A stretch of DNA of 64,000 bases. Origin: Dokdonella sp. GTDB lineage: Bacteria > Pseudomonadota > Gammaproteobacteria > Xanthomonadales > Rhodanobacteraceae. The position numbers and the translations under genes are program-made. Below, one piece after another: positions 15,659 to 27,247 of this stretch. Within the stretch, counting starts at the first letter, position 1, and each line of letters begins with the position of its first letter. The stretch is taken from NCBI RefSeq assembly GCF_019634845.1, contig NZ_JAHCAQ010000001.1, forward strand, positions 124,001-188,000, read 5' to 3'. The notes beneath the pieces are model-generated. The model saw only the letters and a program-made list of their open reading frames with translations, ran no database searches and was not told the origin of the DNA.

Positions 15659-17875
15659 ATGAAACAAGCACTCTCGGTGGCATTGGCGGCAGCGCTCGCC
15701 ACTTTCGCGCTGGCTGCGTGCCAGGCGCCGACCAAACCCGACCAGGCCGCCGCGGCGACGGTGCCGGTTGCGCCGGAAGCGGCAGCCAATCCGCTGTTCA
15801 CGCCCAGTCCGCTGGCGCTGGAATATCCGCAGTTCGACCAGATCGAGGACGTGCACTTCGGGCCGGCCTTCGATCGCGGCATGGCCGAACAGTTGCAGGA
15901 GATTGGCGCCATCGTCGATAACCCGGCGCCGCCGAGCTTCGACAACACCATCATCGCGATGGAGCGGAGCGGGCAGATCCTCAATCGCGCCACCACCGTG
16001 TTCTTCAGCCTCGTCGGTGCCGACACCAACGACGCGCGCAAGGCGATCCAGGCCGACTACTCGCCGAAGTTCGCGGCCCATCGCGACGCGATCTATCTCA
16101 ATCCGAAGCTGTTCGCGCGTGTGGCCAGTCTCTACGAGCGACGCAGCCAGCTCGGTCTCGACGCCGAGGGCACGCGCCTGGTCGAGCGCTACTACGATGA
16201 TTTCGTGCGCGCCGGCGCCAAGCTCGCGCCGGCCGAACAGGCACGCCTCAAGCAGATGAATGCCGAACTGGCCAGGCTCGGCACCCGCTTCAGCCAGAAC
16301 GTGCTGGCCGAGGTCAATGCCTCGGCGATCGTCGTCGACAGCAGGGAAGAACTCGACGGCCTGCCGGCCGACGCCATCGCCGCCGCGGCCGAGGCGGCCA
16401 AGGCGCGCAAGCTCGACGGCAAATACGTGCTCGCGCTGCAGAACACCACCGGCCAGCCGCCCGAAACCTACCTCAGCAACCGCGCGCTGCGCCAGCGCAT
16501 CCACGAGGCGTCGGTCACGCGCAACAGTCGCGGCAACGACTACGACAACACCGCGATCGTGGCGCAGATCATGAAACTGCGACTGGAGCGGGCGCAGATG
16601 CTCGGCTATCCCGACTATGCGAGCTACAGCCTCGCCAACCAGACCGCCAAGACCACCGCGGCCGTCAACAAGATGCTCGGCGAACTTGCGCCGGCAGCCG
16701 TTGCTAACGCCAGGCGCGAGGCCGCTGATCTGCAGAAGATGATCGACCGCGAGCAGAAGGCCAAGGGCACCAAGAGCTTCAAGCTCGAGCCGTGGGACTG
16801 GGCCTACTACGCGGAGAAGGTGCGCAAGGCCAAGTACGCGTTCGACGAAGCCCAGCTCAAGCCGTACCTCGAGGCGAAGAACGTGCTCGAAAACGGCGTG
16901 TTCTACGCCGCCGGCCAGCTCTACGGCCTGCGTTTCAAGCAGCGCACCGACCTGCCGGTGTACCAGCCGGACCTGCTCGTCTACGACGTGTACAACGAGG
17001 ACGGCACGCAACTGGCGATCTTCATCGAGGACATGTACGCGCGTCCCTCCAAGCGTGGCGGCGCATGGATGAACGCGTACGTGCAGCAGAACCGCCTGTT
17101 CGGCACCAAGCCCGTCGTGGCCAACCATCTCAACGTACCCAAGCCACCCGCGGGTGAGCCCACGTTGTTGACCTGGGACGAGACGCGCACGATGTTCCAC
17201 GAGTTCGGCCATGCGCTGCACGGCATGTTCTCCAACGTGACCTATCCGTACTTTGCCGGCACCAGCGTGCCGCGCGACTTCGTCGAGTTCCCGTCGCAGG
17301 TCAACGAGATGTGGGCCGACTGGCCAAGCGTGCTGGCCAACTACGCGCGCCACTACCAGACCGGCGCGGCGATGCCCAAGGCCCTGCTCGACAAGGTGAT
17401 GGCCGCGGCCCAGTTCAACGAGGGCTTCCGCACCACCGAGTACCTCGGCGCCGCGATGCTCGACCAGAACTGGCACCAGATCCAGCAGCTTGCGGCGGTG
17501 CCGGCCGCCGCCGACGTGATGGCGTTCGAGGCCGCCGCGCTGGCCAAGGACGGCATCGCCTACGCTCCCGTGCCACCGCGTTACCGCACGCCGTACTTCA
17601 GCCACATCATGAGCGGCTATGCCGCCGGCTACTACTCCTACATCTGGTCCGAAGTGCTCGATGCCGACACCGTGGAGTGGATCAAGCAGCACGGTGGCCT
17701 CACCCGCGCCAATGGCGACCGCTTCCGCGACACGCTGCTCTCGCGCGGCGGCAGCAAGGATGCGCTCGACCTGTTCCGCGACTTCACCGGTGGCGAGCCC
17801 GACATCAAGCCGCTGCTCGAACGTCGTGGCCTGGCCGCGCCGGGCGCCAAGACCAAGGCGCCGGCCCGACACTGA
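15659..17875 (+). CDS. dcp: M3-family metallopeptidase lipoprotein (peptidyl-dipeptidase Dcp-like)
   Basis: A 738-residue zinc peptidase. The N-terminus is a lipoprotein signal (lipobox LAAC, Cys21), so the mature enzyme is probably anchored in the periplasm, unlike soluble E. coli Dcp. Residues 45-450 are the helical M3 body; the catalytic motif is TMFHEFGHALHGMFS (HExxH, about residue 505) with the downstream glutamate in FVEFPSQVNEMW. The GYAAGYYSYIWSEVLDAD region forms part of the active site in the family. The enzyme removes dipeptides from peptide C-termini. The ATG at 15659 was chosen because the upstream extension would bury the signal. It stands alone and is followed by a strong hairpin. 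Confidence 0.9.
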   Translation: MKQALSVALAAALATFALAACQAPTKPDQAAAATVPVAPEAAANPLFTPSPLALEYPQFDQIEDVHFGPAFDRGMAEQLQEIGAIVDNPAPPSFDNTIIAMERSGQILNRATTVFFSLVGADTNDARKAIQADYSPKFAAHRDAIYLNPKLFARVASLYERRSQLGLDAEGTRLVERYYDDFVRAGAKLAPAEQARLKQMNAELARLGTRFSQNVLAEVNASAIVVDSREELDGLPADAIAAAAEAAKARKLDGKYVLALQNTTGQPPETYLSNRALRQRIHEASVTRNSRGNDYDNTAIVAQIMKLRLERAQMLGYPDYASYSLANQTAKTTAAVNKMLGELAPAAVANARREAADLQKMIDREQKAKGTKSFKLEPWDWAYYAEKVRKAKYAFDEAQLKPYLEAKNVLENGVFYAAGQLYGLRFKQRTDLPVYQPDLLVYDVYNEDGTQLAIFIEDMYARPSKRGGAWMNAYVQQNRLFGTKPVVANHLNVPKPPAGEPTLLTWDETRTMFHEFGHALHGMFSNVTYPYFAGTSVPRDFVEFPSQVNEMWADWPSVLANYARHYQTGAAMPKALLDKVMAAAQFNEGFRTTEYLGAAMLDQNWHQIQQLAAVPAAADVMAFEAAALAKDGIAYAPVPPRYRTPYFSHIMSGYAAGYYSYIWSEVLDADTVEWIKQHGGLTRANGDRFRDTLLSRGGSKDALDLFRDFTGGEPDIKPLLERRGLAAPGAKTKAPARH

Positions 17876-17908
17876 CAGGTGCACCGTTGCCACGGGCGCA
17901 CCGGACTG

Positions 17909-17949
17909 GCCTCCACCGCCGCGCGGAGCGTTGCGCGCGCGGCGGAGGC
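17909..17949 (+). terminator. Strong hairpin after the M3 peptidase gene
   Basis: CCGCCGCGCG pairs with CGCGCGGCGG, extended by GCCT/AGGC across a 3-nt bulge, loop of about 9 nt. It lies 34 nt after the stop in a 213-nt intergenic stretch with no gene. No U-run follows, so it may need Rho or act as a 3' stabiliser. Confidence 0.5.
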
Positions 17950-18088
17950 AAGCACCGCGCTTCGTGCGCACGGGCGATGACGGCGCGTCCCTGCGGATGG
18001 TGACGCGCCAACTGCTGCCTGCGATGCTGCCGCCGCCGGAGGCGAGTGATCGCTGCCCGGCCCGCACGCCGCGTGCGATCGCCTGTGC

Positions 18089-19174
18089 CTAGGTCGGTCG
18101 GTGCGCAGAGCCGGTGGTGGGCGGCGCGCGCAGGGGTGGCGCCAGCTGCGGCCGTTGGCCACCAAGCGCGCCCTGCAACTGCGCCAGCGATTGCTCGATC
18201 GCCGCCCGCCAGGCGTCCACCGTGGCCGGATCGCTCGCCGCCTGGGCATACCAGTTGATGACGAAGGCGAAATACATCCAGCGGCCGTGGCTGTACATGC
18301 CGCCGGCGAAGCAGCGTGCGTGGAAGCCTTCGATGTCGGCGTTGCCACTCTTGCCCCAGGCGCTCGCACCGAGCGGCAGCGGGATGAGGTAGATGTAGTC
18401 GCACAGCGTGAGGATGCGGCGGAACTCCTGCAGCGTCTGTGCGTGCGCGAAGAATTCACCCTGCAATGCGCGCGCGTAGTAGCTCACGAAGTCGCCTGCC
18501 GACGAGGCCAGGCTTTGCACGTCGTTGAGGAAGGGATGGATCATCGGTTGCTGCGCCACCGCGAGCAGTTGTTCCCAGTCGAGCGAGGCGTAGTTGGGCG
18601 CGCCACACAGGTAGCCGGTCAACGCGCGTGTGCTGTCGGGCACCGACGTCCTGGCCAGGCCCGCGGCGGCGATGAAGTGGCGGATGTTGGCGACGCCGGC
18701 GGCCTTGAACACCATGTCGGTGGCGGTGTTGTCGCTGCGCAGGATCATCGCTTCGAGCGCGCTGCGCAGTGACACCATGCCGTAGAGGTCGGGTGGGTTG
18801 TAGATCGGGCTGCCGAACGACCAGATGCTCGAATCGAGAATGAGCGCGCGCTGTTCGAGTTGCGCGACCACATCGGGTGCGTCGTGCTGGCGCAAGGCCT
18901 CGCACAGGGCAAAGGTCTTGAGCGAGCTGGCGCAGAACAGGCGCCGATCGGCTTGCAATTGCGCGACGAAATCGTCGCCACCCGCCACCGCGGGAACGCG
19001 GATTTCGAACCCGACATCGCCGGGCAGGGCGGCGAAACGCGCCACGATCGATGCCGGGTCGAGCGCGGCCAGCGCGGCGTCGGCCGGTTCGGCTGCGAGC
19101 GCGGCCAGCGGCGCGGCGCCGAGGGCGGCGGCGCCGGCCTTGATGAAGTCGCGGCGGGAGCGCTTCGCTGTCAC
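18089..19174 (-). CDS. Tat-exported class A beta-lactamase-fold serine hydrolase
   Basis: A 361-residue protein. The N-terminus (SRRDFIKAGAAALGAAPLAALAA) is a twin-arginine signal. The serine beta-lactamase/DD-peptidase triad of motifs is present: SSLK (S83, K86), SDN (147-149) and KSG (275-277). I do not see the E-x-x-L-N omega-loop motif expected of true class A beta-lactamases between SDN and KSG, so hydrolysis of beta-lactams is doubtful. A carboxypeptidase or esterase activity is equally possible. The tail is proline-rich. It lies 21 nt after the G8-domain gene on the same strand and is probably its operon partner. Confidence 0.75.
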   Translation of the reverse strand: MTAKRSRRDFIKAGAAALGAAPLAALAAEPADAALAALDPASIVARFAALPGDVGFEIRVPAVAGGDDFVAQLQADRRLFCASSLKTFALCEALRQHDAPDVVAQLEQRALILDSSIWSFGSPIYNPPDLYGMVSLRSALEAMILRSDNTATDMVFKAAGVANIRHFIAAAGLARTSVPDSTRALTGYLCGAPNYASLDWEQLLAVAQQPMIHPFLNDVQSLASSAGDFVSYYARALQGEFFAHAQTLQEFRRILTLCDYIYLIPLPLGASAWGKSGNADIEGFHARCFAGGMYSHGRWMYFAFVINWYAQAASDPATVDAWRAAIEQSLAQLQGALGGQRPQLAPPLRAPPTTGSAHRPT

Positions 19175-19195
19175 GGCTGCGCGTCCGCCGCGATC

Positions 19196-22100
19196 TCAAC
19201 GCGCACAGAAGTCGTGCGGCAGGTCATCGGCGCGTTGCGGGCAGACATCACCTGGATAGGGCTGGCCCAGCTGCTGCAACGGGTGATCCCAGGGCGCTGC
19301 GTTCTGCACGCACTGCGCCGGTGGCCGCGGATCGGTGGCGCCGGCTTCGAGGGTCTGGAATCCGGCTGGCAGCGTGAACTTGATGCCGAAACAGCCGCCG
19401 GCAGGGCAGTCCTGGTCGGCGCCGGCCCAGGCGCACACGGCATCGTTGGCGCGATCCACGCCCACGCATTGCGACCGTGCATCGAGCGTGCAGAAGGTTC
19501 GTGGCTGGCACTTGTCCTTGCGTCCCTGATCGAACAGACCCACCGCGCCGGGCAGGTCGTCCATGCGCAGGCTGACCTCGACCACGCCCCGCGCGGTGGC
19601 CTTGTCGCCGTTGAGCCAGCGCGCGCGGCCCGGTGGCAGCGCGCCGAGGCTCTCGTCGAAGACGATCGGATTGACGCCAATGCGTGCCTTCACCATCTTG
19701 ATGCTGGCCGGATCGAAATCGGTGTTCTCGCCGACGTAGAAGCGGTAGGTCTGCTCGGTGTCGGGCTTGGCGAACACGAGGAACAGGTAGTAGCTCTCAC
19801 CGGGCTTGAACACGTTCACCACGCACGGTGTCGGGTCGTTGCGGCGCAGGCAGCCATCCTCGGACAACTGCCGCTTCTTCGACACCGCGGTGTCGATGTA
19901 GTAGGTGCCGTGGTTGGCCGTGAGCGAACTGCGCTGGCCGGTCTCCTGGCCCATCATGCGGATGCTGCGGGCCAGGCCATGGTCGGCGATCGGCATCTGG
20001 TTCTGCCGCCACAGCGGCACGCCGAAGCAGTCCTCGTTGGTGCAGGCGCGATTCCAGTCGCCGGAGTTCCAGTTCATGTTGCTGCCCTGCGGTGCCAGCG
20101 CGCAGGTGCCGTTGTTGGCACAGGCCGGATAGAGGACCGTGGTGACGTACTGGTACGGACTGGTGCGCGAGCTGTTGGCCGACATGCACTGGGTGGCATC
20201 GATCGGCGCGGCGAAGAAGTCGTCCTTGTTGATCACCGTGGTGTCGACGTAACCGGTCAGCGTGCCGTCATCGTCGTTGAGCACGGTCTGGCGGTCGTTG
20301 CCGGCGAAACCCGCGAACAACTTTGAGTTGTAGCTGCAGTACTGCTGTTCGACCGCATCGAAGTCGGTCATCAGGCTGCCTTCCTTGACCAGCGGCGTCA
20401 CCACGAAATGACGGATGTCGACCTTGTCGAAGTACAGGTTCCTGGAATGGAACGCGGGCGGATAGTAGAAGCCATTGGGCTGCTTCCAGCCGATCGCTGC
20501 GTTGGGCATGTAGCAGCGCGCCGATGCGCCGCTGCCGACCTTGGGCAGGCCCAGCAGCGAACCGGCCAGCCATTCGCTCTGGCGCGCCCTGCGGTTGCTC
20601 ATGTCGGGATCGCAGCGGCCCACCTTGTTGGCGCGGTCGACGAACGGCTTGCAGTCGTCGATGTCGAGCGTCTTGATGTTGAGGTAGGCGTTGGAGTCCT
20701 GGTAGGCCGGGCCGTCATACACGCTGAACAGGCGCTGGTACATGCCGAAATTGCTGGTCTGCACCGAGATGCCCTCGTCGATCGACAGGCAGAAATTGGG
20801 TGGCCGGTTGCCGTTGGCATCGATCGCGCAATGCAGGCCGTTCGGATTGAACGCGCTGCCGCTCGATGCATACGGATTGCCGTCCTGGGTGTGGCCGATG
20901 AACGCGCTCTTGTGCACCAGCGCCCAGTGACCGGGGATGACATCCGATTCGCTGTAGCCGCCGCCGGTGACCATCGTCAGGCCCGCCTGCTGCACGTCGG
21001 TGATGACGCTGTTGGAGACCAGATACCACTGTGGCCGCAACCAGATCGCAGCGAAGTTGAAAGCGGCCCAGTTGAACGAGGTGGTGTAGCGGTCGAGCAC
21101 CGTGACCATGCAATCGGCTGGCGAGCCGGCGCTGCAGCGCGCGGGCTGCGTGCTGCAGTCCTGTGAGGTGCATTGGGTGGGAAAGTGGCCGCCGCCGGGG
21201 TCGAGCGTGGGGTAGTAGCCGGTATCGCCCTGGTTGCCGGCCAGCGGGTTCTTGACCGGTTCCAGATTGAGCGGGTGCGGCTCGGGCGCATCGCCGGGGC
21301 CGATGCCCTGGCAGGCTTCGGTGCCGGTCACGGTCTGGAACGAGGTCATCGCCGCGGCACAGGTGTTGCCGGTGAACGACTTGAGTGGAACCATGCCGGC
21401 ACGATTGAGATCATGCGGATCGCCGTTGCGTGGCGCCTGCATCGATGCGTACGACGTCCATTTCATGTTGCGCGACATGCCGCTGTTCATGCTGGTCAGC
21501 CACCAGTAGCACACGCCGCAGGTGCCGGCGCCCACCGCCATGTTGTCCTCGAAATCATTCCAGCCGTTCATGATCCAGAACACCGTCGGGTGGTCGTAGT
21601 CGGAACGGAACGGCACGTTCTCGCCGATGCTCAGGTGCAGGTTGGGCGCGGCAAGGATGCCGGGAATGCGCCGCGGGTTCTGCACGTTGTCGACCGCCGC
21701 GCGCGCAAACACGCCGAGGTTGGCGATGAACTTGTTGTCGGTTTCGGTGCCGTCCTCGAGATAGAAGCCATGGCCGATCGACTTCCAGCCGACGTTGCGC
21801 TCCAGGCGCAGGTTCTGCGCGCCATGCAGCACGATCCAGCGCGTCATCGACTCGTTGACCGAGGAGTCGCGCAGGAAGGTGTCGGACGGCGCCCAACGGG
21901 TCAGGTGGAAGTGCAGCGGATAGTGGCCCATGCGGCCGCCCTGGCCGAGCTGGCGCAGCTCCACGCCCTGCATCTGGAAGCGCTTGAAGCCCTGCCGCAC
22001 CACCACGTGGCCACCGAACGAATAACCCGGGCCGCTCGAGCCCAGCGTCGGTTCGGGCGGAAAGTCGGCATCGAGCGTGTCGCCACCCGAGACGATGCGG

Positions 22101-23161
22101 ATGCTGCGCGTGAGCACGCCGACCGCGGCGCGGACCTCGGCGCCGTTGGCATGCAGCGTGGCATCGAGTCCGACACCCTGCGGCACCGTCGACAGCGCGA
22201 AGCGGATGCCATTGTGGGCGTGCTTGAGCGGCGCCTGCAGCGCAACCTGCGTGCTGCACTCGACGTCGCTGGCGACGACGGCTTCTTCGGAATGACCCGG
22301 TACGTAGTCGGTGCTGGTGACGACGATGTGATCACCGGCCTGCAGGCGCAGCGGTCGATCCAGCTTGATCTGGGTGGCGCCGATCGCGGTCGAGCCATCC
22401 AGTCGCGCCCAGCTCGAGCCGCTGCTGCTTGGCGCCGCGGCGCATTCGGGGCTGGCGTAGCTGGCGCCCTTGCGGCCGAACAACTGCAGCGTGCCGCCGT
22501 AGGATACGCCGAGCACCTTGTAGCCGAAATAGCCCTTGCCATGCGTCGGGTTGTCGGCGCCATCGAGTGGCAGCGGGGTGTAGGCGTAGAAGTAGTCGTT
22601 GCCGATGGCCGCTTCGTCGCCGTAGCGCGGGTAGCTCGCCGCCGAGGCCAGAGCCGAGATCGGTCGCGCCTGACTCACCGGCACCGGCATGCCCATCGCA
22701 TCGCGATTGGCGTTCCAGATGTCGTCGGGCACGCCGCATTGACCCTTGTCATCGCTCAGGCAAGGTACGCCGCGACCCTGCCGGTTGCGGTCGCCGCCGG
22801 TCTGGTCGGCGCCCCACAGGTGGATCGCGAGCTGGCCGCCATGAGTGCCGATCGGCTCGCTCGGCGAGCCGGCGACGAGACTGCCGTCCTTCTCGACGAG
22901 GATGTTGGCGGCCCAGAACTCGATGCGCGCATCCTCGAAGCTCAGCGTGCCGCCGGCGAGTACATGCACATCGCGGAACTGATAGTTGCCCGCCTTGACC
23001 GCGCAGGGCGCGGTGACGACGAGATCGCCGCCGCTGCCGGCCTGCAGCACGCCGCCGGCGCAGGTATCGGCGTCCGCGGCGAAGGCCGGACGCGAGCCTG
23101 CAGGCAACAGCATGACCATGGCCAGGGCGAGGCCCAGCTTGAGCGTCGTTGCGGTGTTCAT
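19196..23161 (-). CDS. Large exported G8-domain protein with CEMIP/TMEM2-type beta-helix
   Basis: A 1321-residue exported protein with a signal peptide (residues 1-29). Residues 50-120 and 200-300 fit the G8 domain: GGTLSFEDARIEFWAANILV, LAIHLWG, GTLQLFGRKG and GDHIVVTSTDY. Residues 385-545 carry the hallmarks of CEMIP, TMEM2 and fibrocystin-L: MGHYPLHFHL (411-420), VLHGAQNLRLERN (444-456), GHGFYLEDGTE (463-473) and TVFWIMNGWNDFEDNMAVG (526-544). Those relatives are right-handed beta-helices, and CEMIP and TMEM2 act in hyaluronan binding or cleavage. The second half has many cysteines (Cys-rich, probably disulphide-bonded) and no motif I recognise. It lies 11 nt after a beta-barrel gene. A role in binding or cleaving an extracellular polysaccharide is inference. 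Confidence 0.75.
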   Translation of the reverse strand: MNTATTLKLGLALAMVMLLPAGSRPAFAADADTCAGGVLQAGSGGDLVVTAPCAVKAGNYQFRDVHVLAGGTLSFEDARIEFWAANILVEKDGSLVAGSPSEPIGTHGGQLAIHLWGADQTGGDRNRQGRGVPCLSDDKGQCGVPDDIWNANRDAMGMPVPVSQARPISALASAASYPRYGDEAAIGNDYFYAYTPLPLDGADNPTHGKGYFGYKVLGVSYGGTLQLFGRKGASYASPECAAAPSSSGSSWARLDGSTAIGATQIKLDRPLRLQAGDHIVVTSTDYVPGHSEEAVVASDVECSTQVALQAPLKHAHNGIRFALSTVPQGVGLDATLHANGAEVRAAVGVLTRSIRIVSGGDTLDADFPPEPTLGSSGPGYSFGGHVVVRQGFKRFQMQGVELRQLGQGGRMGHYPLHFHLTRWAPSDTFLRDSSVNESMTRWIVLHGAQNLRLERNVGWKSIGHGFYLEDGTETDNKFIANLGVFARAAVDNVQNPRRIPGILAAPNLHLSIGENVPFRSDYDHPTVFWIMNGWNDFEDNMAVGAGTCGVCYWWLTSMNSGMSRNMKWTSYASMQAPRNGDPHDLNRAGMVPLKSFTGNTCAAAMTSFQTVTGTEACQGIGPGDAPEPHPLNLEPVKNPLAGNQGDTGYYPTLDPGGGHFPTQCTSQDCSTQPARCSAGSPADCMVTVLDRYTTSFNWAAFNFAAIWLRPQWYLVSNSVITDVQQAGLTMVTGGGYSESDVIPGHWALVHKSAFIGHTQDGNPYASSGSAFNPNGLHCAIDANGNRPPNFCLSIDEGISVQTSNFGMYQRLFSVYDGPAYQDSNAYLNIKTLDIDDCKPFVDRANKVGRCDPDMSNRRARQSEWLAGSLLGLPKVGSGASARCYMPNAAIGWKQPNGFYYPPAFHSRNLYFDKVDIRHFVVTPLVKEGSLMTDFDAVEQQYCSYNSKLFAGFAGNDRQTVLNDDDGTLTGYVDTTVINKDDFFAAPIDATQCMSANSSRTSPYQYVTTVLYPACANNGTCALAPQGSNMNWNSGDWNRACTNEDCFGVPLWRQNQMPIADHGLARSIRMMGQETGQRSSLTANHGTYYIDTAVSKKRQLSEDGCLRRNDPTPCVVNVFKPGESYYLFLVFAKPDTEQTYRFYVGENTDFDPASIKMVKARIGVNPIVFDESLGALPPGRARWLNGDKATARGVVEVSLRMDDLPGAVGLFDQGRKDKCQPRTFCTLDARSQCVGVDRANDAVCAWAGADQDCPAGGCFGIKFTLPAGFQTLEAGATDPRPPAQCVQNAAPWDHPLQQLGQPYPGDVCPQRADDLPHDFCAR

Positions 23162-23172
23162 GGATATCCCCC

Positions 23173-24309
23173 TCAGAAGCTGACGGCCAAGTGCAGGTTG
23201 ATGCCCTGCGCGCGCAGCCTGGAATTGTGGGCGGTGAACTGTGGTGCCAGCGGACCCGACGGCGTCGGCGCCGGGTCCTCGGTGAACGAGGTGCTCTGCG
23301 TGGGGTTGATCCGGCGGTCGACCTGGTTGCCCGGGCGCAGCACCTTGTCGGCCTGCAGCAGGCTGTAGCCCAGACCCAGCGTGGCGTGATCGCCCAGGCG
23401 CAGACCCAGCCCGAGCGCGGCTTCGCCCACCAGCGCGAACTGGCTGCGCGTGTGTCGGCCGATGTTGCTCGGTTGCGCGAAGTAGCCGCCGACGAAGGTC
23501 TCGGTGGCGCCGAACGCAGTGAAATCATTGGTCCGCAGGCTGCCCTGCACGTCGGTGGACTGCCGCATCGTGCCGGCGGCGGCCTTGAGGCTGGCCACGC
23601 CGAACCAGCGTCCCGCAGCGGCCTGCGCGCGCAGGCCGGCCTGCACGCCGTAGTAGCGGTTGCGGCTGTCGAAACGGTCGAGCGTCTGCCACACGTCGGG
23701 CTCGAAGGCGGGCAGGTAGGGACTCTCGGTGGCCAGCGTCCAGCTCTCGCGGAAATCGAGATGGCGCAGGCCGCCCAGCAGGTCGAGTTGCCAGGCCTCG
23801 TCGGCGGCGACGGTCCAGCGCAGGTCGAGCTCGGCGCCGCGCAGGCGGTCGCGCACCTCGTGGTAGGCGCTGCCGCGGTAGATCTGCGCCTGCGACAGCT
23901 CGCTGCCGGCTTCCTCGCCGGTGATGGCGTCGATGTAGGGCAGGATGAGGTCGACCGAGCCGACTTGTCCCGACGATGCCACACCGCCGCCGACGCGGCG
24001 CGACTGCAGGCCGAACGCGCTGGCCTCGATGCCCCATTGCGCATCGAACGCGTAGCCGATGCCGAGCCGTGCGCCGCGGTGCGTGCCGGTCGACAGCGCT
24101 TCGTCGCCGAGCAGCACCTGTGTGCCGGGTGCGCCGATGATGCCGTCGCTGATGATCGGGAACGGGATCGGGCTGTCGTTGAGGCGCCACGACAGCGCCT
24201 CGAGCGACACGTTCCAGGTATCCGCAGGCGCTGCCAGCGCGGCTTGCGCGGCGCATGCCGCTCCGGTCAGCGACAACAACAGGCCTGCAATCGAGTTGGG
24301 TCGGCGCAT
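23173..24309 (-). CDS. Outer-membrane beta-barrel protein, BBP7-like
   Basis: A 378-residue protein with a Sec signal peptide (residues 1-26, LLSLTGAACAAQAALA). The mature part alternates amphipathic strands (GARLGIGYAFDAQWGIEASA, FALVGEAALGLGLRLGDHA). It ends in QGINLHLAVSF, the terminal phenylalanine being typical of BAM substrates. RPGNQVDRRINPTQ before the last strands resembles the BBP7 family, best known from Planctomycetes. The ATG at 24309 has GGAG 9 nt upstream. A TTGCGC-N18-TATGAT promoter lies about 130 nt upstream. It is the first gene of the operon that includes the G8-domain protein and a Tat-exported hydrolase. Confidence 0.7.
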   Translation of the reverse strand: MRRPNSIAGLLLSLTGAACAAQAALAAPADTWNVSLEALSWRLNDSPIPFPIISDGIIGAPGTQVLLGDEALSTGTHRGARLGIGYAFDAQWGIEASAFGLQSRRVGGGVASSGQVGSVDLILPYIDAITGEEAGSELSQAQIYRGSAYHEVRDRLRGAELDLRWTVAADEAWQLDLLGGLRHLDFRESWTLATESPYLPAFEPDVWQTLDRFDSRNRYYGVQAGLRAQAAAGRWFGVASLKAAAGTMRQSTDVQGSLRTNDFTAFGATETFVGGYFAQPSNIGRHTRSQFALVGEAALGLGLRLGDHATLGLGYSLLQADKVLRPGNQVDRRINPTQSTSFTEDPAPTPSGPLAPQFTAHNSRLRAQGINLHLAVSF

Positions 24310-24439
24310 CGTGACGAGCTCCGTGTGTGGATCGGATGGCCCACCGGAGCAGCGCCGGACGCTGTGCGATCGATGCGGGTGGTCCCCTGTCCGGTACTGG
24401 AGGTCGCAATGCGCCCGCCCACCATCGAACGTGAGCTGG

Positions 24440-24469
24440 ATCATAAAACCGTTGCCATCGGCGGCGCAA
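24440..24469 (-). promoter_or_regulatory. Sigma-70-type promoter of the barrel/G8/hydrolase operon
   Basis: On the minus strand TTGCGC (24464-24469) and TATGAT (24440-24445) are separated by 18 nt. The implied 5' leader before the barrel ATG is about 120 nt. The 296-nt gap 24310-24605 holds no gene. Confidence 0.5.
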
Positions 24470-24605
24470 AGGCCGACAGTCCACGCCGGCAGCGCCGCGT
24501 CGCGTGGATGCCGTGCGCCAGCGCGCACGGCCACCATGGCCGCATCGCGGGTACCGGCGGTTGCGCGCCGCGTGGTGATGCTGCCGGCCATTGCGCTTGC
24601 GTGGC

Positions 24606-26021
24606 CTAGCGGTCCGCCGTGGCGGCAGCGCGCGTCGTGTTCGGCCCTCGCGGTGCCCGCAGCTCGACGCGCCAGCCCAGTTCGGCGAGCCGCTCGGCGG
24701 CCAGCGCAGTGGCGTCGCCCGCGATCAGCACGCGGCGGCGGCCCTCGCGCAGTGGCGCCAGCGCGAAGTAGCGTGCCGCATCATCGGTCCAGCTCAGGCG
24801 ATCCACCGCCAGCGGCAGCAGCAGTTCGCCGTCATCGGCCCTGAAGGCGAACCCCGCGCCGATCGTGAGCAGGTGCCCGCCGTGCGCGTGGGCGCCCAGT
24901 GCGCTGTGCACGAGCGCCAGGCCATTGACGAGGAATCGCGCTTCGAGCTCGCTGCGTGCGCTCATCGCCAGTTCGAGGAAGGCGTCGCAACCGGTCGCGG
25001 GCTGCAGCGCATCGAGTGCATCGACCAGCGCGGTCTGCAGCGTCGGCGAGAACGCGCCGCGGCGCACGAACTGGCGCACCAGCAGCGCATCGCGGCAGTG
25101 CGCCTGCAGGCGCGTTGCGTTGCGTGCGCGCAGGTCGTCGGGCGACAGCCGCCACACGATCTCGTCGATCTGTCCACCCTTGGCGAGGATGTCGGCCCCG
25201 ACGCCGCCCACGGCGTCGAGCGCGGCGCCTGCGCTGAAGCTGCCCGCGCTGCCGACCCAGGCCAACGCCACCAGCCGCTCCTGCACCTGGGGGTTGGTCG
25301 AATACGGATCGATGCCGAGGCGCCGCGCGATGTCGCGCTTGACCGTGTTGAACTTGAGTTCGCGTTTGACGTAGCGCTCGCCCTCGCGCGCGATGCGGGT
25401 GTACCAGGTCTTGCGGCGCGCGGCAGGCGCGTCAGTCGCATCGCCGTCGCGCGCCTGCGTCATCGGTCCCTGGTCGGCAGGAAACGGCTCGCCGATGTTG
25501 CCGAGCTTGCGCGCCGCACGATCGGTCAGCGACTGCGCCTGGTTGGCCTGGCGCACGAGCCGATCGCGCAGGTAGCGCGCGACGCCCACTGGCAGTCCGG
25601 TCACGGTGTCGACCGGATGCAGCGCAATGTTGACGAGCGACTCGACCGTGTGGCCGAGGCGATCGCCGGCGGCGCGCACGAACGCCTCGCTGTGGGTGGC
25701 CGCATCGAGCCGTTCGAGTGCCGGCAGCTCGGCTTCACGCTCGGTGAGCATCTCGACGCTCGGCGCCTGCAGCGTGCCCAGGCGCGTGTCGAGCGTGAAG
25801 TGCGCCATGTAGCCGCGCAGTTCGACATGCGGATCGACGCTGAAGCCCGGCCCTGACAGCAGCGCCGGCTCGATCAGCGAAGCGGCATCGACGACGGCTT
25901 CCTCCTCGGTGGCTGCGGCCGCGCCGGGCGCTGCCGCCGGCGCGCCGGCGAGCCACGCGCCCAGGAGTGCGGCGGCGACGCAGTGCAGGTGGCGCTGCGG
26001 GGACGATGATGAACGCAACAC
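24606..26021 (-). CDS. Secreted conserved hypothetical protein
   Basis: A 471-residue protein of unknown function with a signal peptide (about residues 1-35, ending APGAAAA). GYMAHFTLDTRLGTLQA, then a helical LTEREAELPALERLDAATHSEAFVRAA and ALHPVDTVTGLPVGVARYL resemble a conserved gammaproteobacterial family whose members also contain KRDIARRLGIDPYSTNP. The C-terminal part (residues 290-471) shows alternating helices and strands without a catalytic signature. The likely start is the GTG at 26021, with GAAGG 5 nt upstream, 8 nt after the acyltransferase stop, so the two are co-transcribed. The longer frame upstream runs through the acyltransferase gene and is a shadow. Confidence 0.65.
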   Translation of the reverse strand: MLRSSSSPQRHLHCVAAALLGAWLAGAPAAAPGAAAATEEEAVVDAASLIEPALLSGPGFSVDPHVELRGYMAHFTLDTRLGTLQAPSVEMLTEREAELPALERLDAATHSEAFVRAAGDRLGHTVESLVNIALHPVDTVTGLPVGVARYLRDRLVRQANQAQSLTDRAARKLGNIGEPFPADQGPMTQARDGDATDAPAARRKTWYTRIAREGERYVKRELKFNTVKRDIARRLGIDPYSTNPQVQERLVALAWVGSAGSFSAGAALDAVGGVGADILAKGGQIDEIVWRLSPDDLRARNATRLQAHCRDALLVRQFVRRGAFSPTLQTALVDALDALQPATGCDAFLELAMSARSELEARFLVNGLALVHSALGAHAHGGHLLTIGAGFAFRADDGELLLPLAVDRLSWTDDAARYFALAPLREGRRRVLIAGDATALAAERLAELGWRVELRAPRGPNTTRAAATADR

Positions 26022-26029
26022 GGTGACCT

Positions 26030-27247
26030 TCAGCGGGAGCGCGCGGCGTCCTCGACTGGCGCAGCGGCGGGCGCGGCGATCATCTCGGTGTGGAGCTGTG
26101 GCCGCGCTGAACGCGGTCGCCCCAGGCGCAGCACCGGCAGTTCGAGCCAGCGGTAGGACAGCGCTGCGAGCAGACAGGCCAGGCCCAGCACCACCGGCAA
26201 CATCCACGGCAGGCGGTAACCGCTGATCGCGTCGAAGGCGTGCGCGTTGCCGAGCCAGTGCAGGACCGGAAAGTGCCACAGGTACACGCCGAAGCTGATC
26301 AGGCCGAGCCTGCGCAGCGGCGCGTTGTCGAACAAGGCGCTGGCGACGCGGCTGCCGCGCGCGGCAGCGTAGAGCATGAGCGCGACGGCAAGCCCGGCCA
26401 GGCCGTGCCAGGTGAACAGCAGTGGGTGGCCTTCCCAATAGCTGCCGATCGTGTAGTGCGACGCCCACAGCAGGGCCGCGAGCAATGCCATGCCGCCGAC
26501 GAACAACGCATCGTTGCGACCCGGATGGAGCGGGCGACCGCGGGCCACCGCGCAGGTATAGGCATAGGCGGCCAGCATGCCGGCGGCGAACTGGTCGAGC
26601 CGGCCCGGCATCTGCTCGAGCGCGATCACGCGCAGCGGCACCTCGGCGTGCGCCACCAGCGGGAACACGAGCTGCCGCCAGGCCTGGGTGACGAGGATCG
26701 CCAGCAGCGCCAGCCACCACCAGCGCCCGGGCCGCAGCCAGTATGCGAGCAGCGGCAGCAGCAGGTAGAACCCGAACTCGATCGACAACGTGTAGGTGAC
26801 CGGATTGATCGGTGCGGCACCGAATGGACCGAGGTTGTTGAGCAGCAACAGGTTGCCGAGCAACTGGCCGAGCGTCGGCACGCTGCCGATGCCGGCGACG
26901 GCCGCCAGTGCGATGAGCACGGCGAGCTGCCCGTAGTAGGCCGGCAGGATGCGCTGCACGCGGCGCAGCCAGTAGGTGCGCAGCGAGGGGCGCGGTGCCG
27001 CTTCAAGCTGACGGCTCGCGTAGGGCAGGCTCAGCAGGAAGGCCGATAGCGTGAAGAAGATGTCCACGCCGGCCCAGCCCGCCGAGAACAGCGGCGTGAG
27101 ATCGAGCGGTCCGAGCATGATGAGGCGGGGCGTGGCCTCGACCCACACGTGGTAGACCACCACCCACAACGCGGCGAAGCCGCGCAGGCCGGTCAGCGCG
27201 GTGAGTTCGGCATCGCGCGATTGCAACGCCATCGACCGTGCCGGCAT
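26030..27247 (-). CDS. OafA/YrhL-type integral membrane acyltransferase
   Basis: A 405-residue acyltransferase-3 family protein with about ten membrane helices. LTGLRGFAALWVVVYHVWVE is the N-terminal family motif with the catalytic histidine, WAGVDIFFTLSAFLLSLPY follows, and YTLSIEFGFYLLLPLL and GVYLWHFPVLHWL are later conserved helices. Such enzymes O-acylate sugars of lipopolysaccharide, capsule or secreted glycans. The frame is open to a GTG at 27271. The ATG at 27247 was chosen because GAGGG lies about 10 nt upstream, but a further ATG 6 codons later is also possible. It precedes the secreted hypothetical gene, with which it probably forms an operon. Confidence 0.82.
   Translation of the reverse strand: MPARSMALQSRDAELTALTGLRGFAALWVVVYHVWVEATPRLIMLGPLDLTPLFSAGWAGVDIFFTLSAFLLSLPYASRQLEAAPRPSLRTYWLRRVQRILPAYYGQLAVLIALAAVAGIGSVPTLGQLLGNLLLLNNLGPFGAAPINPVTYTLSIEFGFYLLLPLLAYWLRPGRWWWLALLAILVTQAWRQLVFPLVAHAEVPLRVIALEQMPGRLDQFAAGMLAAYAYTCAVARGRPLHPGRNDALFVGGMALLAALLWASHYTIGSYWEGHPLLFTWHGLAGLAVALMLYAAARGSRVASALFDNAPLRRLGLISFGVYLWHFPVLHWLGNAHAFDAISGYRLPWMLPVVLGLACLLAALSYRWLELPVLRLGRPRSARPQLHTEMIAAPAAAPVEDAARSR

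Follow-up and report, generated by a model that had tools for sequence, protein, structure and literature searches.

What do an outer-membrane barrel, a large β-helix protein resembling human TMEM2 and CEMIP, and a serine hydrolase do side by side in one bacterial locus, and which of them belong together? The question was raised by three minus-strand genes of Dokdonella sp., located at positions 18089..24309 of a 64,000-nucleotide (nt) stretch (contig NZ_JAHCAQ010000001.1, positions 124,001 to 188,000), which we refer to in its entirety as the window and which belongs to a 3.26-Mb assembly. We found that the barrel gene and the gene for the β-helix protein, which carries a G8 domain, form a real, clade-restricted module with which the hydrolase is loosely associated. 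As to function, the reading that we favor, at slightly below even probability, is a two-gene core in which the CEMIP-type protein, a probable polysaccharide cutter, is docked at the surface on the barrel, the hydrolase being a loosely linked accessory. The G8/CEMIP protein, a right-handed β-helix, would be exported and would then dock at the cell surface on the vase-like 10-strand BBP7 barrel encoded just upstream, where it would bind, and probably cut, an extracellular, likely acidic polysaccharide. The Tat (twin-arginine translocation)-signal serine hydrolase would act in the periplasm, for example by cleaving ester or amide bonds on the products or the cell envelope.

G8/CEMIP proteins, BBP7, and Beta-lactamase2 are already known; their combination is new. 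An earlier annotation of the letters alone (the first-pass annotation) had known of no described bacterial system of this composition, and our literature search, which left most subscription papers and all bioRxiv preprints outside its scope, likewise turned up no report on the trio or on bacterial barrel–G8 pairs among the papers listed.

Pairing of the barrel and G8 genes

The gene layout was recovered as first annotated. Open reading frames (ORFs) of 378, 1321, and 361 amino acids (aa), all on the minus strand as are the features given below, encode the barrel (23173..24309), the G8/CEMIP-type β-helix protein (19196..23161), and the hydrolase (18089..19174; GTG start), and spacers of 11 nt (23162..23172) and 21 nt (19175..19195) separate them. 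The proposed family names also held, all above the Pfam cut-offs: BBP7 (PF07585; E 4.6e-48, 164.6 bits against a cut-off of 26), CEMIP β-helix (residues 381–565, 21467..22021; E 7e-44, 150.6 bits against 27.3), G8 (residues 58–121, 22799..22990; E 5.6e-10, 39.6 bits against 22.9), and Beta-lactamase2 (PF13354; E 7e-14). Signal peptides were recognized by eye in the barrel and the G8 protein, and Tat export of the hydrolase agreed with NCBIfam TIGR01409 (19 bits; cut-off 16.7), Pfam TAT_signal remaining below its cut-off (14.1 versus 22.7 bits). Since its long ORFs match families and are conserved in relatives, the three-gene locus exceeds chance. The promoter placed ahead of the operon was not recovered: a sigma-70 consensus scan of 17800–24700, which is blind to other promoter types, gave 0 sites (shuffle mean 0.5). 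The minus-strand protein encoded upstream (24606–26063) had no Pfam match at E 0.1.

We scanned genome contigs for G8 relatives, of which 110 were confirmed and 80 loci retained (L033–L112; L008 and L033 are one contig). Profile searches of their ORFs found the barrel in seven (L033, L034, L035, L036, L046, L069, and L076), in every case immediately upstream of the G8 gene. With the window, this made eight barrel–G8 loci, and the distance from the barrel stop to the G8 start was 9–11 nt in all eight, counting from a GTG start in L069 and from an ATG rather than the preceding TTG in L076. A tree of 48 G8 proteins, with L082 chosen as the root, placed all eight barrel-paired proteins in one clade of 10 (support 0.979); the remaining members, L042 and L037, had no barrel match. 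The eight loci, their 9–11 nt spacing, and their confinement to one clade support a dedicated barrel–G8 pairing. One of these barrels, in L036 (8602–9810), is split across two reading frames, and the label of this metagenome-assembled genome (MAG), Bordetella parapertussis, looks doubtful. The records of the seven barrel–G8 loci other than the window all carry MAG titles.

The contiguous trio itself was confined to the window and L033. The neighborhood survey thus extended it to one further genome, in which the G8 protein is 98% identical to that of the window. Among 48 G8-bearing genomes, taken from the 51 loci L033–L083 with L058, L061, and L072 omitted because their genomes were already represented, the barrel was present in seven and not detected in 41. 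Background surveys found it in two of 299 genomes sampled within the order, namely the window's own and G023, and, of 398 genomes sampled within the phylum, only in the window's own. Neighbor clustering across the 51 loci placed an SDR-type oxidoreductase near G8 in seven loci (within 90 nt in three) and a lipoprotein-like protein downstream of G8 in five titled Deltaproteobacteria or Proteobacteria (L045, L048, L053, L056, and L077), the L077 copy matching NHL/Vgb_lyase. A recurrent third partner was considered and rejected: besides the barrel, the clusters present in at least three loci read as generic families or came from close relatives.

Next, we compared the barrel with known folds. Its PF07585 score, its model, and its C-terminal aromatic residue place it among BBP7 barrels; the last residue is Phe in seven of seven aligned barrels, and the four barrels scanned matched Pfam BBP7 at E 4.6e-48 to 1e-74. 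The AlphaFold2 model of the mature protein (pLDDT 84.6, pTM 0.83) showed a barrel spanning residues 10–356, with the closest folds being 10-strand barrels. Those of the OpcA adhesin and the omptins are alike at 8–14% identity. Omptin proteases possess catalytic Asp/His residues; as judged from the alignment, no His was invariant across the seven barrels. No functional literature on BBP7 was found in the search described above, and the tight pairing would offer a handle on the function of this family. In the plasmid collection, the barrel had no match at E 1e-3.

According to the first-pass annotation, the barrel could anchor or export the G8 protein. Of this proposal, a dedicated pairing of the two is supported. 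Export in the style of two-partner secretion would fit a barrel gene lying directly upstream of a β-helix gene at 9–11 nt in eight of eight loci, but we regard it as very unlikely. The first strand begins at mature residue 10, leaving no space for a POTRA domain before the barrel, as would be expected of a TpsB protein; a barrel of 10 strands is narrow; no Pfam POTRA or TPS match was found in the barrel and G8 proteins; and the 41 G8 genomes without a detected barrel speak against a dedicated exporter.

A further reading takes the barrel as an uptake porin: the G8 protein, secreted by another route, would cut a polysaccharide, the barrel would import the oligosaccharides, and the hydrolase would trim them in the periplasm. 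KdgM imports the products of pectate lyase. Pfam describes the family as "putative beta-barrel porin-7", many proteins whose folds resemble the G8 model act on glycans, and the barrel's fold list includes the oligosaccharide porins NanC (9.8), VhGalP (9.6), and KdgM (8.6). These scores are, however, far below those of the leading group (19.6–24.3), the same 41 genomes lack a detected barrel, and sugar-transport families were absent among the few neighbors scanned with Pfam. We consider an uptake porin unlikely.

The G8 protein and its invariant residues

Both Pfam domains and a predicted fold corresponding to the TMEM2 ectodomain place the 1321-aa protein among CEMIP/TMEM2-type proteins; human TMEM2 (CEMIP2) and CEMIP are likewise G8-containing β-helix proteins. 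A profile built from 48 sequences of the bacterial family retrieved human TMEM2 as its single solved relative (8c6i, E 2.5e-54). The bacterial protein is not an ortholog of human CEMIP/TMEM2 by our comparison, since lectin-like domain 1, inserted in the β-helix of human TMEM2, is missing from it (profile positions 221–247 span human chain positions 159–335). The bacterial protein also differs from its human relatives in being paired with an outer-membrane barrel.

The family is widespread. Forty-seven ORFs in L033–L083 each cover more than 1050 query residues, and the record titles of their carriers name gamma-, beta-, and alphaproteobacteria, deltaproteobacterial and Dadabacteria MAGs, Acidobacteria, Binatia, and Methylomirabilota; in L084–L112, similarity is mainly confined to the G8-protein core. 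Plasmid genes annotated as "G8 domain-containing protein" (for example from Croceibacterium, Vitreoscilla, and Planctomyces) have the G8/CEMIP core in common with the window protein but match just 12–27% of the query. Among the 50 matches listed from a viral structure library, tailspikes, depolymerases, and β-helix proteins dominate the named ones.

Homologs outside the barrel clade bear varied extra parts, which suggests that the G8 protein is destined to sit on the cell surface or outside the cell and that the means of placing it differ between lineages. The G8 protein of Methylotetracoccus oryzae (L041, 9554–14125) has C-terminal RTX repeats and that of L043 has TSP3 repeats; by eye, those of L040 and L073 end in a hydrophobic segment with a basic end, and those of L066, L067, and L082 have lipoprotein-like N-termini. 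Many homologs outside the clade have neither a barrel nor any of these parts. Multiple copies were also observed: L073 (4330–14797) contains a tandem pair of G8/CEMIP genes, the second of which encodes pentapeptide repeats at the N-terminus and is extended at the C-terminus, and one acidobacterial genome contains three long G8/CEMIP genes (L044, L058, and L061).

We then focused on conserved positions. At 122 positions aligned to human TMEM2, the bacterial family is at least 90% conserved, and at 75 of these the human protein has the identical residue. Eight polar residues, H417, H419, R441, H446, H464, E469, E473, and N476 (21734..21913), do not vary in any of the 48 bacterial sequences and are identical in human TMEM2. 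The same eight are kept in 25–29 of 29 distant G8 proteins, a count that is biased at 411–419 and 528–535, and hence for H417 and H419, because the search patterns sit there; E292, H316, R344, R441, H446, H464, E469, E473, N476, and N540 lie outside this bias. Adding 82 to the chain index, a conversion that we derived from the construct description in the TMEM2 structure report (PMC10206443), gives H547, H549, H582, H600, E605, and E609 as human counterparts of the cluster.

Judged by conservation, this cluster is a candidate active or metal site, and it may also have a structural role. That the G8 protein is a non-catalytic surface adhesin or a structural β-helix appears somewhat unlikely: the invariant His, Glu, and Arg residues that the bacterial proteins share with human TMEM2 point beyond a mere scaffold, although they could be structural. 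At the other extreme, a lectin-less, perhaps ancestral-type TMEM2/CEMIP β-helix might be a true polysaccharide depolymerase that is seated on its own barrel and uses the invariant cluster for catalysis. We hold this strong form to be quite unlikely; if true, the bacterial protein could settle the disputed human activity and the missing active site. Whether TMEM2 and CEMIP themselves cut hyaluronan is disputed; the authors of the structure report could not assign an active site in TMEM2, and the residues reported as important for TMEM2 activity sit in the lectin-like domain (PMC10206443). Table 1 of the same paper lists one Ni2+ in 8c6i. The bacterial family, widespread and predicted to share this fold without the lectin-like insert, could provide a simpler protein for testing TMEM2/CEMIP function, and the polar residues shared by all 48 bacterial sequences and human TMEM2 provide a short mutation list.

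Linkage and motifs of the hydrolase

The hydrolase adjoins the G8 gene only in the window, L033 (spacer, 21 nt), and L042 (27 nt). At the genome level, a survey of 61 genomes found it in eight (E ≤0.001), with strong matches in G000, G002, G004, G005, G009, G014 (two pieces), and G023 and a weak one in G035 (19.7 bits). Several of these same-genus genomes also figure among the loci above (G002/L033, G005/L034, G004/L035, G009/L042, and G014/L046). Full-length G8 occurred in G000, G002, G004, G005, G009, and G014 (G051 gave a weak match to the core), and the barrel in G000, G002, G004, G005, G014, and G023, so that the seven genomes with a strong hydrolase match are exactly the union of those bearing full-length G8 or the barrel. 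In G004, G005, and G014, the hydrolase and G8 lie on different contigs. Among the 48 G8 genomes, 15 had a match, 10 strong (at least 332 bits) and five weak (at most 49 bits). In the backgrounds, 18 of 299 genomes of the order matched, strongly only G000 and G023, and 23 of 398 of the phylum matched, strongly only the own genome (none of the 397 others; next best, 41 bits). The acidobacterial order of G325 gave matches in 76 of 150 genomes, nine of them strong (at least 410 bits), and the three G8 genomes of this order were all within those nine. With G325, the chosen center, excluded, G8 was present in two and a strong hydrolase in eight of 149 genomes, both G8 genomes being shared (p ~0.0025, kinship ignored). 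These data constitute a suggestive genome-level co-occurrence of the hydrolase with G8.

A competing explanation, also compatible with other readings of the barrel, is that barrel and G8 form a functional pair and that the hydrolase lies downstream by chance. We consider this quite possible, at somewhat below even probability. The contiguous trio occurs in two near-identical genomes only, G8–hydrolase adjacency occurs in three, and the hydrolase gene stands beside hslVU, by eye, in L030 and L031. The exact coincidence in seven of 61 genomes and the absence of strong matches from the 397 other phylum genomes count against it, as does G023, which belongs to a different genus. There (L029, 8199–17287), barrel and hydrolase genes 3.5 kb apart flank that of a 1029-aa protein with six CxxCH motifs, a DHOR-type 1137-aa protein (two CxxCH) is encoded upstream, and a search of the genome found no G8.

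Several of these observations weigh against a surface-docked polysaccharide cutter with the hydrolase as its accessory. The barrel is not generally needed, being undetected in 41 of the 48 G8 genomes, and it is not specific to G8, because G023 has the barrel and the hydrolase together with haem proteins and no detected G8. Nor is the hydrolase tied to G8, because six of the nine strong-hydrolase genomes of the acidobacterial order lack it; other neighborhoods surround the hydrolase in the acidobacterial and Burkholderiales genomes inspected. The co-occurrence counts come from genomes that share kinship and are not independent evidence, and in the order and phylum backgrounds 4–6 first-look candidates were scored per genome. 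The TMEM2 literature adds to this, since its activity is disputed and the residues linked to it belong to a domain that the bacterial protein lacks.

Finally, we examined the catalytic motifs. The hydrolase has in common with class A β-lactamases the SxxK (S83–K86, 18917..18928), SDN (residues 147–149, 18728..18736), and KSG (residues 275–277, 18344..18352) motifs. SxxK and SDN were present in 11 of 11 compared sequences; the third motif was KSG in seven and KGG in four acidobacterial ones. The omega-loop Glu of class A β-lactamases serves deacylation, whereas in the alignment to 2cc1 the hydrolase has Thr182 at this position, and all 11 sequences have P-D/E-S-T-R at the omega loop. The NCBIfam bla_class_A model, whose cut-off is 200 bits, gave 31.2 bits. 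On the strength of the omega loop and this score we rejected an ordinary class A β-lactamase, and the enzyme is expected to be slow or to act on non-lactams. For the earlier proposal that the hydrolase could act on the same extracellular target as the G8 protein, the genome-level co-occurrence is no more than suggestive; adjacency to G8 is confined to three genomes, and the omega-loop Glu is missing in the alignment. The plasmid collection yielded one hydrolase match (36.6%) at E 1e-3. In G014, the hydrolase (L032, 468–2554) is split over two reading frames, reflecting either a frameshift or an assembly error.
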